From assembly GCA_025602915.1 (NCBI GenBank), contig JAHLJZ010000009.1, forward strand, positions 310,001 through 374,000: a DNA stretch of 64,000 bases, given 5' to 3'. Shown here piece by piece: positions 12,212 through 60,391 of this stretch. The position numbers and the translations under genes are program-made. Under the pieces are notes generated by a model. It was not told where the DNA came from. It ran no database searches and saw nothing but the letters and a program-made list of their open reading frames with translations. Position 1 is the stretch's first letter. Every line of letters begins with the position of its first letter. This stretch comes from Paraphysoderma sedebokerense (Eukaryota > Blastocladiomycota > Physodermatomycetes > Physodermatales > Physodermataceae).

Positions 12212-12308
12212 TCTTATGATGTATTTGTATTCAGTTTATTCGGGCTGTATGGTAGAAGTCAGGGACTCCGGACTCCAAGAAGGGAGAAAATCTTAATTAG
12301 GAAATCAC

Positions 12309-14854
12309 GTGTCCCGTTGCTGGGGAAGTCTGCTAATTCTGTTGGCGATCATTTCGTTCTCTTTTGTTCAATGGACCAAACTCTATATTAAGGCCGCATC
12401 TTTGAAAATGACCACAACATCACATCCTCTTGCTCCGTTTTCACTAAAGTTATCCCCTGCCGACATCAAAACACTCTCGGCCCATGTCCATTCCCTCATT
12501 AAACGCGCCGGTGACTCTATTGCCCAGGTTCCATCTCATGAACGAACTATTCAAAATACTCTCTTGATATGGTCGCATTACCATAGTCAAGCAGCGTCCA
12601 AGCAAGGAGAATGCAGTACGCTGCCGGCTATGGTTCATGAGAATGCCGAAGTTCGAAAGGCCGCGACGGCAGCGAAGACAGAAATAAAGAAGGCCTTTGA
12701 AGAGTCGTACACTCGGACTGACGCCTTTGAGGTTTTAAAGTCTATAGACAGTTTGGTAAGCAAAGAAGGAGATGAGTACATAAAGCGACTATACGGGCGA
12801 ACGATGTCGCTGTTTAAAAGGAATGGATTAGGCCTTGACCCAAAGCAACGTGAAGTTTACATTAAATTGAAGAATCGCATTACAGATTTAGAATCAGAAT
12901 TTACACAAACAATCAATGAAGATACAACGACAATTGGATTCACCTTGGAAGAATTATATGGCTGCCCGGATTCTTTCATCGCAAATCTTGCAACCAAAAC
13001 GCTACCTCAATATGGCCCGGGTTCTGGGGGTCGAAAAGTTTACCTAGTCACCATGAAAGCGCCGGATGTATTGACAGTTATGAAAAATGCTAAATCTTCA
13101 GAAACAAGAAGTAGAATGTATACAACTTATAACTGTCGCTGTACTCAAAATGCGCCGCTGCTGGCTCAATTGATATATACTCGACACTTGGCTGCCAAAG
13201 TCTTGGGTTACGAATCGCACGCTCACTTCAGGTTAGACGAAAATATGGCCAAAACGCCTGAAACGGTGGTTAAATTTTTGAAGGGAGTCGGAGATCAGTT
13301 GGAGAAGAAACGTGACGCCGATATTGTCAAGTTGTCAGGATACAAGAAAAGAGAGAACCAGAGCGATGAAGCCTTGAAATTATGGGATGTTGGATTCTTT
13401 GAGAATATATTGCGAAAAGAAGAGTTCAATGTAGATGATGAACTCGTGTCTCAGTACTTCCCATTAGAATATGTACTAACTGGAATTCTAAAAACGTATG
13501 ATAGCTTCTGCAGTAGTATTACTTGCAGGTAATTTTGGCCCCACGATTTTATCTAACGAATCTTTTCCAGATACGAGAACCTGTTCAACTTAAAATTCAC
13601 TCAGATCACAGATCCACAACTGAAATGGCACGAATCGGTGTTGCTTTATTCAGTTGAAGACATTTCCTCCTCAAAGGAACCTAGTCATATTGGATATTTT
13701 TACCTCGACCTTTTCCCACGTCCAGGAAAATACTCACATCAATGTGTCCTTCCCGTGGTTCCTGGCATCTGGACCGAAGAATCGATAAAACCTGTTGCGG
13801 CAAATATTGGAAACTTGAGGAAACCAGAAGGAAACAAGCCCAGTCTGTTGAGATACGCAGAAGTGAGAACATTTTTTCACGAGTTTGGTACGTAAATCTA
13901 CCATTTCTTCATATAGGGGAATGTAGCAAAATAGTTTAATTGACGCTTGTGTAGGTCATGTTGTGCATCACTTGTGCACGAAATCAAGAGACTCGTTGTC
14001 GTCTTGGACTTGGAGTATGAACCCATATCCTGGGTAAGACGAATGGTTAGATTTCCAATCTGGACAACATAAAACTGATAACATTAACTTAGGGGCGTGG
14101 AAATCGACTATCTCGAGTTGCCATCTCAAATGTTAGAGGTAGTGCTTCCGTATCTACTTGAACGTAGCTTTGTGATTATTAAAATTTCTTCGTATTTTGA
14201 AGAATTGGATTCACGATCCTTCAACCCTTGCGAAACTTTCTAGTCACCACTCGACTTCAGAAACTCTTCCAGCTTCACTTGTCTCTTCACTTATTCAGAC
14301 TCGTCACGTCAACGCTGGATACGCGTATACCAGACAGATTTTCATGTCACTATTCGACATGTATATTCATATGCCTGAATTTTGGTCAAACCTAGATGTA
14401 CCGTCTGCTGCTGACACTGAATTGACTGACCAAGTCGTAAAAGAGGTGGTGAGTAAAATGATCAGTTTGTGGAAACAGTTACAAAAAACCGTGAACGGTA
14501 TGGATATGGTAGAAGACACTATGCCTTTCTGTACTTGGTACCACTTAGCTGGTTACGATGCAGGTTCGTTGATTCATTAATCACAGCACAGTTTCATCTG
14601 AAAGCTACCAAATTCACTGACTTATGATGTCGTTTTTAGGTTACTATTCCTACTTATATTCTGAAGTCTTTTCACACGACTGTTTTTCTGTTTTCAAATC
14701 ATCTTCCGCTGGTTGTCACGATGTCGAACTTGGAATGAAATATAGAAAATGTATTCTTGATCCTGGAGCAACTTTGGATGGAAATACAATGGTCAATTCG
14801 TTTTTAGGCAGGGAACCTAACGATAAAGCCTTCTTGGAGTTTGTTCTTGGATAA
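12309..14854 (+). CDS. M3-family zinc oligopeptidase (saccharolysin/thimet type)
   Basis: Six exons (12309..13495, 13571..13887, 13955..14033, 14093..14138, 14203..14563, 14640..14854). The joins rebuild the family core: [13 protein letters not shown], then HEFGHVVHH (HExxH zinc site) and the third-ligand region [17 protein letters not shown]. Later [20 protein letters not shown] and the C-terminal [19 protein letters not shown] also match M3 peptidases, which cut short peptides. Using the first ATG the protein has a hydrophobic N-terminus ([15 protein letters not shown]), a possible signal anchor. An alternative start at 12408 ([11 protein letters not shown]) would give the usual soluble form. 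Which start is used is not settled by sequence alone. Confidence 0.93.
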
Positions 14855-24589: not shown

Positions 24590-27500
24590 TTAAAAATATT
24601 TGTAACTTCCATCAAGACTAGCTGGATTGGTGTCGTTACTTCCAGAACTCAGTCTTCTGTTAGAAGGACGCCGTCCTCGCGACCGTGGTGAGTCTTGCGA
24701 GCCGTCCCAAGCTATCTTCTCCAAGGCATCCATTTCCTTGATATCAGGCAATCTCATTGAAATGTCCAATCTAACGTTCTCCCATGGCTCACTTTCGTTC
24801 GCGAACACGGCCATCCAATGATTCAGTTGCTCTTGATTTTCGGCTTGGAAAGTAAAAGTGTATCGATCAGAATTGACGACAAAGAAGAACGGATGAACTT
24901 TGGTGTCATTAGATGCTGTGGGCGTGAAAGGCGTATCAATCACTTCTGGAGATCCAACAAAACGGAAAGAACGAAGGACACCGCTGCTTTTTGATGGATC
25001 AAATTTGAAGCGTCCAGATCCAGTGTCAGATTTGATATACGTTCGGGGAATTTCATTGACGGTGAAGTATTGCTTTGATCGAACAACAACAACTTTAACC
25101 AGGACCCAACGGTCCCAGATACTCGAAATGTTGCCAATGATTCCTTTACGCGACTTCTTCATAATTAAGACTCCTTCCACGGTATCGGTTAGTGGTAATG
25201 CGGAAGGCAGCGTTGTATATCGATGTTGTTGTTTACGGCTTGCTGAGGGTGATAACGGCGATCGAGGATATGCATGTAGCAACGATGAAGCTGAAGCCAA
25301 AGAAGCATCTGATTGATTCGAATCAGAACGAGATCGAGTTTGTGGTACATGGGTTGGGGTGGTCGGTGATGAAAGAGAATTGTGATCTGAGCCGGACATA
25401 AATTGAAGATTACCACCAGAGCCTAGAATGGCACTTGTGATTTGATCTTCAAGATCTTTGCCAGAGTTCGGAGAAAAGAATAATGTGTAGAGATGTGGTA
25501 AGAAGAAAGCACAAATGGTGAAGGTAGTGCAGAAGAGAGTGGCGATGATTCGAAGGTAGAAGGGAGTGAGGTAATCGTACGATCCGATAAATAGAGTTGG
25601 AAATGTCAACAGTAAACCAAAGAAGATATTGCTAGAAAAAAGGTTGATTGATGGTTGGTTACAACATCTTGAATTCCAAAGATGAAAGGTATTGTACATA
25701 CTAGACACAAATAGAAATAGATTTTGCTTCTTTGTACACTCCGCTGGGTACTTTTCTTGTCTTCCAAGCGAGGAAAATAGCGTACGAAATAAGCGCAAAT
25801 TCGTAAACTATAATGGCCCACAACCAACCATTTTGTACAGCGCGGATGCTGGTTAAGCAAGTGACATAATGAGTTGTTGGAGAAGCTTGAACTACAGCTG
25901 GCGCGCAATTTTGTGCGAAAAGATAAGGCAATACTAAGATCACAGCTACGGCAACGAATCCAATAGATAACTTTAAGAGGGGTTCGTCCTAGAAGTACAG
26001 GCAGTTAGATAAAGAATTACATTGAAGTCTGAAGGAACGGCAATCTTACCGGAAGTCCATTCCTGAACGCAAGAGGGCTTCCAAAAATTTGATAGATTCT
26101 CTGATTCTTCACTATGATATTTCCGACTACCATCGTCAATCCGACTACGAATGCGACGGGATCAAGGTAGCAGATAATGTGTCTCTCCAATCCTCTCAGC
26201 AAGTGCAAGATAACACCCAAATAAATGAATAACGCTCCAATCAAAATGAGTACGCAAAACAGCGGCGACAATGCCTTGATGAGTTTGTTTTCTCGGAAGT
26301 AGATTATGGTTCCCAAAATCATCAAGTCGAATAACATCAGACCACAAGTAAGAGCAAAGAAAATTTTCCCCGGTAACGAGTTCATGCCGACGGTAATATC
26401 TCGGCTTCGGGGTCCATCGAGAGGAATGTTGCTTGTACCGTCACTGAATACTGGTTTTGAAAAGACTGTAACTCTTCCTGCGAGAACCCTGGCGTAACTT
26501 GCGGCAACTCCATTCTTCCAGTTATAAACTTCCCAATTTCCTTGAATATCACCGTGTTCGTCAAATTGGAGAGGACCAGCGGGACTGTTGTATCCTGTGT
26601 TGAAGAACTTTGGGGTAGGATCTGTTGTGTACTTGCCTCCTGCAAGATCAGCAATGGTAGCTGCTTGATTGTTAGAATTTTGTATGAGGCGAGCCCAGGC
26701 GCGGGCAATGCTATAGACACAGCTATAGGCGAGGATTTCGTTTTGTTTAGGTCCGCCGGGTCCAGCAGTTGGATATCTATAATTATTTGCAGTCAGTAAA
26801 CTGTAACTATTGACTTAGATTGTAGTTACGAAGCAAATAGTTCACGTACAATGCAGGATTTGCAACACTCCATTTATTCACCCACGCATCATACTCTGGT
26901 AATCCTGGCAATTTGGTGGCGGCGTCAATCATAAATACGCCTCTTAATTTATCAGCTTCGTCTCCGAGAAATTTTTGCGCATCATCGGTGATATTGTTGA
27001 CGGTGATCCATGTGTAATCTGGGTTTCCTAACATGTTTAACCGGAGAGCTTGTCGCATAATCGACATTTGAGGTGCAGCCACAGCAGCTAAAATAATGAC
27101 CCTATTGGTACAAATAAGGTTAGAAAAGCCGTCTTTAACATCCGACCGTAACCAAAAAGAATGTGAGCGCATGAATTTACCTGGCGTTGCTGTCTTTGAT
27201 ATTCTTCAAGGGAGTGCTCAAGTCACTTTGTTCACCACGATCCCAAAAACTTTGTTGCACCAAAACTGATACATTAGTATCTTTAGTTCTCTCAGAAATT
27301 GTGTTCGCCACTGCAAAATGAAAAGTCAAGATTAGTTCACATTTATCGCAGCCAACTCTTCTCAATTCTAATTTCAAGCAAAGAGAGTCGAAACATACAG
27401 CCTGTGCCGAAACTATCCACCGAATTCAATATAGCAACTTTTGTCCAATTAAAATATTTAACTAAATTGACAGCTGCTTCTCCGAATGTAGCTACTGAAG

Positions 27501-28005
27501 CTACAGTTCTGAAGAAAAACGGATACTGATTTTTATCACTCAATTCACCGGCAGCAGAACTAAAACTACATTGAGGCACCATAAACTTTGAACTAATCAA
27601 GGCCTCTAAAATGGTTTGTTTAGATAATAAATCTCCAATAATAGCTGATACATTTTGATTGATTAAATTGATAGTCGAAACGATAGCTTGTCCGTTATTC
27701 ACTGTTCGTCCAGTAGCAGGGATAGGAGGAATTCCGACGGGAGTGTTGTTCGTTGAAGGTGCCATCGAGTCTAGCTCGATAAGCTGAATTTGAATGTTAG
27801 GTAGTAATGGCGAATTATTTATCTCATCGACGGCATAACGAACGGCGCCGACGGAAGAGTCAATGAGTGTTCGAACTTGTGCGGAGTCATTCTGTGATAG
27901 AGGTAATAATAGTCCTATCTTAACTGTAGTTCTCTGAGATAGAATGACATTTGAATAGCATAGTAGTAGTATTAGATATATGAATATGATGCTGTTGGCC
28001 TGCAT
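24590..28005 (-). CDS. Class C (GABA-B-like) receptor with a PH-like domain in its cytoplasmic tail
   Basis: A multi-exon gene; exon 1 is 28005..27399 and joins in phase 1. The order is: signal peptide (IIFIYLILLLCYSNVILSQ); a periplasmic-binding-type Venus-flytrap domain (VKIGLLLPLSQ, AVRYAVDEINNSPLLPNIQI, VSAIIGDLLSKQTI, FFFRTVAS, VAILNSVDSFGTG, VIILAAVAAPQ, EILAYSCVYSIARAW, GPLQFDEHGDIQGNWEVYNW); then seven helices (GKIFFALTCGLMLFDLMILG to LRIIATLFCTTFTICAFFLP) with Cys in loop 1 (HIICYLDPV). The tail is Ser-rich, then holds a PH-like fold: VEGVLIMKKS, WDRWVLVKVVVV, KQYFTVNEIP, HPFFFVVNSDRYTFTFQAEN and NHWMAVFANE. Ligand unknown; amino-acid-type small molecules are typical for the family. 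The PH-like tail could bind phosphoinositides (inference). Confidence 0.88.
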
Positions 28006-28883: not shown

Positions 28884-30911
28884 TATAATTTTGTCAATAC
28901 ATTTTTTAAGTGCAATATCCTTCCATCTTTAAACATTTCAGTCAATGATTCCATGGAACCACGGTCGTTGATTCCAGATAATTTCAGAATAACGTCAGCT
29001 AAACGAACATAATCATCCTGTGTAACCATATGCGAAGTGGATGGAAGAGAAGGTGAAGAGCACGTCAGTCATTACTCGGAGAAAACCTAAGAAGAACCCA
29101 TTAATGAACGAAGTCGGTTACCTCGTCATTGTAAACTTGCGCCGATATTCGGACACACAATTTTCCTTGCACAACCACGCACATGCACTCTATCTTATAC
29201 TCGTACAATAATTGATCATGCAAACAAGTAGCAAAATACCATAGTCGAGGCAATTCTGCCAGCTGATCCAATTTCTTTGATTCTTTCGAAGTGGGGAGAG
29301 TTGCGCGAGGATGGGTTTGGGTCTGTGTGATGATTTTATTTTGAAGGAGCGAGGGAGGCGTAGGGATGATTGCAATACACCCAATCGTGGTGGGATCAGT
29401 TACCAGGAGTGAGGTGCCGAAACAGCGGGCAAGGAAATGTGCTTCAAAAAGTTAAGTCATCGTTGGTGAGATATAAGATTGCACGATTAGACTGCTGGGA
29501 ATTCTGAACTTTCAAAAATGCTTACCAGCTCGTAGACAAAGATCGTGGTTTCTTTCCATCAGCTCCTGCCCTCCCAATTTTTCATAGAACTTGATCGCCG
29601 AGGGAACCACCAAAAACCTAGAATAATCTGCCGTCCCTGTCCAATAGAACTCGCTTAAAAATCCTTGATTGTAACCATGACTTAGTACCAACGGTTTGAT
29701 TCTGTATGTATCAATCAATTCTTGATTGCGAATATACAGAACAGCGCAACCACGAGGATTGAATAACCATTTGTGTAGATTTGTTACGTAAAAATCAGGT
29801 TGAAGACCACCAATGTCGATTGGTACGTGGCCGATTGCATGGGCTCCGTCGATTAAAGTCAAGATAACGCTGATTAAAGTTGTTACATTTCTGAATACCA
29901 GTAAACAATTACCGTAGCAAGGAAATCTTGTTTACCGTCTCTTACAGACTCCTATTAAGTCCTTGAGCGGCAATATTAGAGCCGAGGCACTAGTGATGTG
30001 ATCAAATATTGCCAATTTGACATTGGGGTTATGATCAAGGGCACTTTGAACCCGCTTGACTATCTGATTGCGAGAACTATTTAATCACACTGGGATTTAA
30101 GTCGAGTGAGAACTGCGAATGGATACCTCATTTCTCGTAGACGGCAAAGGGATTTGAACGATCACGAGTTTGCATCCACTTAATTTGGAGATTTCTTCCA
30201 AGGTTCTGGCCACAGCATCTATTCAAATAAATTAAACGTATTAGGTAACGCTGTATGTTGGATCATTTGGTTAATCTATCTGAAATGTACCATAACCCAG
30301 CGAAGTTGCTAAGATCGCATCATTCTTGTTGAGTTTTCTTGAAACGGCACGTAAAATCGTATTCACTCCAGCAGTTGCATTTTCAACGTACGCTATCCGT
30401 TCTGGTGAAACCTCTAAAGCAGTTGATATGTAAGAAAACATGCAAAGTGTTCAATTGTAGTGGACAGGAGTCAACCTAAATACTTGGCTAGAACTCGCAA
30501 TGACCAAACTATTCGCTCGCCTAAATCTGTTTATTTGTCTTAGACCGCCTTTCAATGTTAAGTAGCTGTTATCATTAAGGGAACAACCATACCGGCCATG
30601 AATTCCAACGGCTGATATTCCATTGCATCCATCCACTGTCGTTGAATAGTTGCAACTACTTTAGGTATGGCGCCGTAACTGCCGTGGTTGATGAAGGTGA
30701 TATCCGGATCTATACTGAATAGCGCTTTCTTCGCTTCCTTTCCATATCTTCCATTATACTTAAACTTTGAAAGATATACATCTATCGGCTCGTTGGAAGG
30801 AAGCGATGTAGGAATAGAAGGAGGAGTGTATTTGTCGGGTGAAGCCGAAATTAAATGTGTAACCTGTTGAAACGGGTTCAACTTGACAGTTGATGGAACT
30901 TTAAGTGGCAT
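28884..30911 (-). CDS. Class V PLP aminotransferase, isopenicillin-N-epimerase-like
   Basis: About eight exons; the first are 30911..30593, 30520..30476 (45 bases) and 30413..30291. The joins restore the family order: GKEAKKALFSIDPDITFINH, GSYGAIPKVV, EYQPLEFMAGGERIVWSLRV, YLEVSPERIAYVENATAGVN, ILATSLGYGDAVARTLEEIS, LAIFDHITSASALILPLKDL, LIDGAHAIGHVPIDIGGLQP and FYVTNLHKWLFNPRGCA. HK in this last block is the Schiff-base lysine. WTGTADYSRFLVVPSAIKF and the C-terminal VRISAQVYNDE|DDYVRLAD complete the fold. Family members are cysteine-desulfurase-like or epimerase/lyase enzymes acting on amino-acid substrates; the substrate here cannot be read from sequence. Confidence 0.9.
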
Positions 30912-57941: not shown

Positions 57942-60391
57942 ATGGCCGACAATTCTGGTAACTCTCCGCCCCTCATCGACTCAACCGATATGGTCATCCT
58001 CGGCCTACTGCTTGTGGGCACGCTCGTTTTCTTCTACAGGCGTTCGCAACAGTCCCAACCAAAACCGACAAAACTGAATTTCAAAAGAGCATCTTCTCCA
58101 AACATTAATGCCGTAAAGTCTTCTGGGACTAATGCTGGAGGCGTCAGTGACAAAACTTTGGTGGGAAGATTGACCAAACAAAATAAAGATGTAGTCGTGT
58201 TTTTCGGAAGTCAAACTGGAACTGGTATGTCTCTGACACAATTGAAAACTACTTTTTGTTTCAAGAAAGCATCTTTGATGGCATTGCGAATACGGAATAT
58301 GCCTTGCTTTTATTGCTCTTGGGTTTTCCCCATTTTCAACAGTTATTAACTTGATTTCATCAATTTGTCATCACAACTTCTTCGATCGAATTCATCACCG
58401 CTATTCAACCAACGAAAAATAGCCGAAGATTTTGCAGGGCGACTAGCGAAAGAGGCTACTAGATATGGATTACAGGCTATGACAGCCGATTTTGAAGATT
58501 ACGAACCGGCAGAACTTAAAAATCTTCCTGCCAACAAACTCGCCATTTTTGTCATGGCCACGTACGGTGAAGGGGAGCCCACCGATAACGCTGTCGCATT
58601 TCATGAATGGCTTTCAGAAACTGCACAAGAGAATCAAGGTGCATCGCCAGACGAATTGCCGCTCAAAAATCTCCATTATGTTGCATTTGGTTTGGGCAAT
58701 AAAACCTACGAACATTTCAATCTTACAATCCGAAATGTTGATAAATGGTGTAAAGCACTCGGTGGAACTAGAATAGGAGAAAGGGGAGAAGGTGACGATG
58801 ATGCAAACTTAGAAGAAGATTATTTAAATTGGAAAGATAATATGTGGTTGGAAGTCTGCAAATTTTTCAAAATCGACCCTTCCACTGTCTCTACAAATGC
58901 GAACACTAGTTTACGATCATTCAGTTTAGTCGAGCATCAGCCTGGAAGTATCAGTGATGCGGATATTTATACGGGACAACTTGGGCCAAAAACCAAATCA
59001 ACTGCAGCACCGACATACGACGCAAAGAATCCTTATTACGCTACTCTGACTGTCAGTCGCGAATTATTTTCTTCCGAAGCCACGAAGCCGTCAGAACCGA
59101 AAGAATTACCTCGAAATTGTTTGCATATGGAGATCGATGTGTCTGGGTCTCGTGTGACTTATCAATCTGGAGATCATGTCGCCATTTGGCCAACGAACGA
59201 TTCTGATGAAGTTTCAAAGTTGGCGAAGGCGTTAGGTCTGTTAAGTAAAAACGAAACAGGCTCAATTAAATTCGATCAACACTTCTCTATGGTCGCTACA
59301 GATCCATCCGCTCGCAAAAAACATCCATTCCCGTGCCCCACTTCTTATCGTACAGCTTTCACTCATTACGTGGATTTGTCAGTTCCGCCGAAACAGCATG
59401 TTTTGCAGTCCTTCATTTCGTACGCCGCTGATGAGCAAACAAAGAACTACGTTCAGAAACTGTCAACCGACAAAGAATTCTACAATGCCGAAATTACCGA
59501 GAAGCACTCAACCATCGCAGATTTACTTGCTGCTCAACCTCAACTAAAAGTTCCCATTGATCTCATTCTTGAATCATTGCCACGCATTCAGGCGCGCTAC
59601 TATTCTATCTCTTCCTCATCGAAAGCCCATCCGACCTCAATTCACATTACCGCTACTATCCTTCGCTACAAAACGTCACATGGAAAATTGGTCAAAGGTC
59701 TATGCACTAATTATCTTTATCAAATACATCAACAACTATTGAAAGACCCAACAATGAAAATAAAAGTACCTATCTATGTTCGACATTCTAACTTCAAACT
59801 ACCTCGTCGGAACGAAACTCCCGTCATCATGATCGGCCCAGGAACAGGAGTAGCCCCGTTTCGGGGATTCATTCAAGAACGATCATTCATTGCTGCCAAG
59901 CAAGCTTCATCTGCTTCTCCTGTAACACCGACGGTGGCCACTCCTCTCGGCGAAGCTATTTTATTCTTCGGTTGCCGAAAAGCAACTCACGATTTCTTGT
60001 ATAGGGAAGAGTGGACCCATCATTTATCAACTGGTGGATTAACGAAGTTGATTACCGCATTTTCTAGAGATCAAAAAGAAAAGATTTACGTCCAAAATAA
60101 GCTTGAAGACGAAAAACATTATATTTGGGATTTAGTGTCCAAAAAGGGTGCTTATATTTATGTTTGCGGAGATGCTAAAAATATGGCTAGAGATGTGAAT
60201 AAATGGTTCGTGGATAAAGCAGTCGAGCTGGGTGATCTAGCTGAAGACAAAGCCGTCAAATGGGTGAAAGAGTTGAGAACAAAGGTTGGTTCAATTTTAT
60301 TTCCCCCGTAGTAGATGGAGTCTTTTCATGTAACATGTTTACTGACGTTGACACAACACAGGGTCGTTTCTCTGAAGATGTCTGGAGTTAA
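57942..60391 (+). CDS. NADPH-cytochrome P450 reductase
   Basis: Three exons: 57942 to about 58225, 58423..60284 and 60362..60391. The order is: N-terminal membrane anchor (DMVILGLLLVGTLVFFYRR); flavodoxin FMN domain (VVVFFGSQTGT|AEDFAGRLAKE, FVMATYGEGEPTDNA, LHYVAFGLGNKTYEHFN); FAD domain (RNCLHMEIDVSGSRVTYQSG, DHVAIWP, IQARYYSISSSSKAHP, GLCTNYL); and NADPH domain (VIMIGPGTGVAPFRGFIQER, AILFFGCRKATHDFLYREEW, AYIYVCGDAKNMARDVNKW). The last 10-codon exon gives GRFSEDVWS, the conserved C-terminal Trp position that stacks on FAD. It donates electrons to microsomal P450s. The gene is complete. Confidence 0.96.

Follow-up and report, generated by a model that had tools for sequence, protein, structure and literature searches.

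The 64,000-nucleotide stretch of Paraphysoderma sedebokerense DNA analysed here (assembly GCA_025602915.1, contig JAHLJZ010000009.1, positions 310,001 to 374,000; hereafter the window) carries on its minus strand a gene for a putative class C G-protein-coupled receptor (GPCR), whose intracellular tail appears to contain a pleckstrin homology (PH)-like domain. The gene runs from 28005 down to 24590 in six exons and encodes 1014 residues in a stop-free reading frame, and the span singled out by an earlier sequence-only reading ends exactly at its stop codon and ATG. All five introns are GT-AG introns of 61-88 nucleotides each. The translation is identical in every letter to the public P. sedebokerense protein P0002, the source label of which is just 'periplasmic binding protein-like I'. 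The last intron (25632-25701) interrupts codon 668 at the outer edge of transmembrane helix 6 (TM6, residues 665-683 by hydropathy). TM7 and the entire tail lie in a single open exon of 1042 nucleotides, so that RNA across the last intron would be uninformative on their join; the tail is part of the receptor gene.

Hydropathy and a Pfam scan of the whole protein bear out the proposal of a signal peptide followed by a Venus-flytrap domain and seven helices: ANF_receptor (PF01094, E 1.9e-43) and 7tm_3 (PF00003, E 2.3e-38) both score far above the Pfam cut-off, with extents as given in Table 1, and their order is that of class C (glutamate/GABA-B type) GPCRs. Judged from these domains the protein is a class C GPCR. 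The cysteine-rich NCD3G domain (PF07562), a trait of the mGluR/CaSR/T1R subgroup, gave no match at E<=1 in the Pfam scan, and 48 residues separate the flytrap and seven-helix matches. Since NCD3G was not reported, the layout is GABA-B-like, its absence being common to GABA-B receptors. The nearest PDB sequences of the flytrap are T1R3 and mGluR3, and a profile from ten family members has GABA-B subunit 2 as its nearest PDB entry; across ten family members, the studied receptor included, two Cys columns are invariant. What the studied receptor adds to the class C plan is the folded PH-like domain in its tail, and we know of no animal class C receptor with such a domain.

The sequence blocks from which a PH-like domain had been proposed (VEGVL, RWVLV, YFTV, HPFFFVV, YTFTFQAEN and NHWMAVF) coincide with the strands and the helix of the predicted tail fold, which consists of seven strands followed by a C-terminal helix, the arrangement of PH domains. 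Its fold relatives in the PDB are the PH domains of DAPP1, Tiam2, 1btn (which we take to be the spectrin PH domain) and GRK2; these share the predicted fold at an identity of 9-20% in the alignments, whereas the studied tail has an incomplete basic lipid motif and sits on a receptor. When residues 800-965 were scanned alone, PF00169 matched with E 8.9e-4 over profile positions 16-100 of 105, and in the whole-protein scan a PH match at residues 902-944 (E 0.027) stayed under the cut-off. As a control ten sister tails were reversed, and none of the ten gave a match to any PH model. A PDB sequence search with the tail alone returned a single chance match (E 1.6).

Receptor and tail occur in the same order in two Allomyces macrogynus proteins, AMAG_04609 (1229 residues) and AMAG_03312 (1150 residues). 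KKS, with which strand 1 closes, and WDRW in strand 2 are invariant between the three tails, and F, Q, E, E, Q and W are shared in strand 7 and the helix; long insertions separate the conserved blocks. W940, the conserved Trp of the C-terminal helix, is retained in both Allomyces proteins. Protein database searches yielded the studied protein, the two Allomyces proteins and the class C proteins P0004 and P0006; two of these searches scored just those candidates with the highest number of shared words (7988 and 7998), so that further relatives may exist elsewhere.

The sequence-only reading had treated the receptor as an isolated fusion, which is not what the genome holds. A genome-wide 7tm_3 search gave at least 50 matches, grouped into 29 loci, of which 28 including the studied gene were examined (C17:38243-39050 was left out). 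A PH-like tail lies behind TM7 in 21 of the 28, and strand 2 has a Trp common to all 21 tails in the alignment; the helix Trp is present in some sister tails and absent from two groups, A (L019, L020, L028, L029, L030, L033) and B (L022, L023, L025, L026, L027). Seven loci (L011, L013, L014, L016, L017, L018, L021) have no PH-like tail, and the full tail model finds nothing in them below E 1.1. Eighteen of the 21 tails were scanned one by one with Pfam (L028, L030 and L033 were left out). PF00169 matched ten of them (the studied one, L010, L012, L022, L024, L031, L032, L034, L035 and L036) and was the best match in nine, PH_9 outscoring it in L010. The curated cut-off was exceeded by L032 only (25.5 versus 25.1 bits); the sole match of L025 was a bacterial PH model (0.08), and no PH model matched in L015, L019, L020, L023, L026, L027 and L029. 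Over the whole genome PF00169 has 37 matches, one of which (C3:394805, under the cut-off) lies behind the class C receptor L010, and this search misses the studied tail; PH-like tails are mostly overlooked by Pfam at its curated cut-off.

Homology between the tails was assessed with hidden Markov models (HMMs) from whose training the tested group was excluded, which were run against the held-out tails together with 3996 open reading frames from the loci. The studied tail was found with E 7.5e-6, L034 with 1.7e-8, L012 with 9.6e-9, L035 with 6.6e-7, L036 with 1e-5, L031 with 1.3e-5, L015 with 1.5e-5, L032 with 3.6e-4, L024 with 0.001 and L010 with 0.0017; the Allomyces pair gave 0.0062 and 0.0082. 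In a profile-profile comparison with hhalign all nine groups outscored their own reversed control, with probabilities of 7% for group A, 35% for group B and 57% over 26 columns for group D, which holds the studied tail; we weighted the held-out HMMs above hhalign. A search of the genome with a 131-residue piece of the studied tail matched itself alone. By the held-out searches, homology is well supported for ten tails and marginal for the five of group B, and the six of group A are included by pattern and intron position only. With one alignment column as the reference point, 18 of the 21 domains begin 30-52 residues past TM7, the spacing being longer in L015 (67), the studied receptor (95) and L032 (129). 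Of the 20 sisters, 15 have in their predicted gene models a phase-0 intron immediately ahead of strand 1, and 16 have a second recurring intron after strands 3/4. The sister tails and the held-out tests rule out a one-off fusion, and the PH-like tail is very probably a family trait.

Several results weigh against this picture. The studied tail scores 20.2 bits with PF00169 against the curated cut-off of 25.1, and whole-protein scans of both Allomyces proteins gave no PH match. Foldseek returned no match at E 0.001 or better for the tail model, and the template modelling scores by query length of the four best rows are 0.35-0.42. The mean predicted local distance difference test score (pLDDT) of the tail model is 61, the five models spreading from 61 to 37, and that of the full-length model, which was not used, is 31.5. 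In the held-out searches group B ranges marginally from 0.0016 to 3.5, and group A fails, with a best E of 4.1 and four of six tails unfound. The sister sequences are splice predictions made in this analysis, both recurring tail introns are absent from the studied gene, and a docking role of the tail, taken up below, is something we infer. Profile, predicted fold, Allomyces conservation and sister-tail homology nevertheless support a PH-like domain, and we are highly confident that the tail has the PH fold.

In a tree of the seven-helix domain (32 rows, root not fixed, groups A and B labelled as tailed) the studied receptor and both Allomyces proteins cluster at 100/100. The tail labels need two changes on this tree, shuffled labels averaging 6.4 and being as low in 0 of 500 cases; the number of changes rises if group A is not PH. 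L013 and L021, a tail-less pair, have the tailed L015 as their sister (100/98), which reads as tail loss. The remaining five tail-less receptors form one clade, and which way the tail changed there hinges on where the root lies. Support for the deep forks is weak, and the branches leading to L010 and to both outside rows are long. The tree and the homology tests place the PH tail in the last ancestor that the studied gene shares with its Allomyces relatives, probably also in the ancestor of most of the family, and indicate at least one loss. A comparison with 'other chytrids' had been proposed; according to the excerpts available on it, P. sedebokerense is an algae-infecting blastocladiomycete outside the chytrids in the strict sense.

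It had also been suggested that the tail binds phosphoinositides, so that the receptor would sense a lipid within the cell along with its ligand outside. The predicted PH fold, a basic cluster conserved with Allomyces and formed by R842 and the KK that closes strand 1, and the net charge of +3 (isoelectric point 9.3) of the studied PH core are in line with such a sensor. The classical phosphoinositide motif of PH domains at strands 1-2, K-Xn-[KR]-X-R, was however not found in this segment in any tail, all 21 being taken as cut and two of them (L026 and L030) starting late, at strand 1; the lone match, in L031, sits beyond strand 2. The studied tail reads K..W-D-R here, with W or D at the middle basic position, and the 21 cores show no general basic character, their net charges spanning -5 to +7. 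Phosphoinositide binding is therefore not supported, and a lipid sensor seems doubtful to us. Still less probable is a cousin of the PH superfold (PTB, EVH1/Homer or Ran-binding domain) that binds peptides or a GTPase. That the tail belongs to a separate gene or was joined to the receptor by an annotation error, for which we found nothing beyond the caution voiced in the first reading, is ruled out by the exon shared with TM7, has the same domain order in the two Allomyces receptors and the sister receptors against it, and retains virtually no credibility.

The best overall explanation, and in our view a probable one, is a class C GPCR with a family tail of PH fold acting mainly as a docking module. 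As in its family, the flytrap would close on a small ligand and drive the seven-helix domain, which would couple to a G protein. The PH-fold module hangs about 95 residues below TM7, and from the spacings in the 21 tails it would have to lie beneath the membrane, next to the receptor. Given this tethering close to the membrane and the missing phosphoinositide motif, the tail may mainly dock a protein partner (G-protein beta-gamma, a small GTPase or a cytoskeletal protein being candidates), lipid contact would be weak at most, and the receptor would in effect bring its own adaptor; we give docking rather than lipid sensing an even chance. The family-wide tail predicts a common intracellular partner and offers a first handle on the signalling of these orphan receptors. 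A bolder version, which we put forward tentatively and think unlikely, has the whole fungal class C radiation start out with a PH tail, a built-in coupler holding a G-protein subunit or a small GTPase. Dozens of chemosensors of zoosporic fungi would then share one intrinsic adaptor; animals supply such a scaffold in trans, as with Homer on mGluRs.

The available parts of the literature describe class C receptors and their outer domains in Blastocladiomycota, chytrids and gut fungi (PMC3251606, PMC12842992, PMC5168858, PMC12716839), with 78 7tm_3 receptors in Allomyces (PMC3251606) and 918 glutamate-type sequences, 'class 16', among 1357 surveyed fungal species (PMC12842992). The studied receptor belongs to the same Pfam family, and Blastocladiomycota are named in both reports; the published descriptions, as far as these parts go, cover N-terminal domains. 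A PH tail on fungal class C receptors is not mentioned in the available parts of the four papers. A count of terms gave 0 for 'PH domain' in each of PMC3251606, PMC12842992 and PMC12716839; 'pleckstrin' has 0 in PMC3251606, PMC12842992 and PMC5168858 and 1 in PMC12716839, in the name of the GPR155 DEP domain; 'C-terminal' has 0 in the main text of PMC3251606. No class C receptor with a PH tail was among the matches listed in the open-access PMC literature. These receptors are numerous in zoosporic fungi, yet descriptions of their tails were not found in the portions available. The nearest published concept in those portions is the GPCR-bigram (GPCR-PIPK, GPCR-TKL and others; defined in PMC6033456, also PMC12716839), likewise a seven-helix receptor with a C-terminal intracellular signalling domain. 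The C-terminal types given there are catalytic whereas a PH domain is not, and the Pfam matches within the studied tail are of PH type only; the PH tail would extend the known receptor-plus-domain fusions by a type without catalysis.

Table 1. Features of the receptor gene, in positions of the window
Feature	Position	Strand	Content	Evidence
Exon 1	27399..28005	-	signal peptide and first part of flytrap	gene model, P0002 identity
Exon 2	27181..27310	-		gene model
Exon 3	26850..27101	-		gene model
Exon 4	26050..26776	-	flytrap end and seven-helix start	gene model
Exon 5	25702..25988	-	middle helices and first residues of TM6	gene model
Exon 6	24590..25631	-	TM6 (nearly whole), TM7, linker, PH-like domain, C-terminus, stop	gene model, open reading frame 24590-25807
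Signal peptide-like hydrophobic start	27937..28005	-	residues 1-23	hydropathy
Venus-flytrap ligand domain	26515..27849	-	residues 53-417, introns within	Pfam ANF_receptor; PDB relatives T1R3, mGluR3
Class C seven-helix domain	25496..26370	-	residues 466-713, introns within	Pfam 7tm_3; top PDB match of family profile GABA-B2
Ser/Thr/Pro-rich linker	25190..25477	-	residues 720-815	composition (22 Ser, 7 Thr, 9 Pro in 96 residues)
PH-like domain	24788..25189	-	residues 816-949	profile, predicted fold, homology
C-terminal extension past the PH helix	24590..24787	-	residues 950-1014, plus stop	gene model

Elsewhere in the genome, four class C genes of one subgroup (L019, L028, L030, L020) stand in a row at C2:188121-204589 with a spacing of about 5 kb, which is a tandem expansion. 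Two class C copies with the same scores, C17:14908-15715 and C17:38243-39050, lie 23 kb apart and stem either from recent duplication or from a repeat in the assembly. The PH-tailed receptor L010 has an unusual outer part (L010:1370-3214), in which by eye a repeat-rich, beta-helix-like region and an EGF-like block take the place of the flytrap. L013 and L021, a close pair beside their tailed sister L015, carry short Ser/Gly-rich ends in place of the PH tail. In the window itself we further noted a peptidase M3 exon (12300-13532, plus strand), a class V aminotransferase exon (29512-29928, minus strand) and a flavodoxin/FAD/NAD reductase (58353-60311, plus strand), presumably of the cytochrome P450 reductase type from its domain set.
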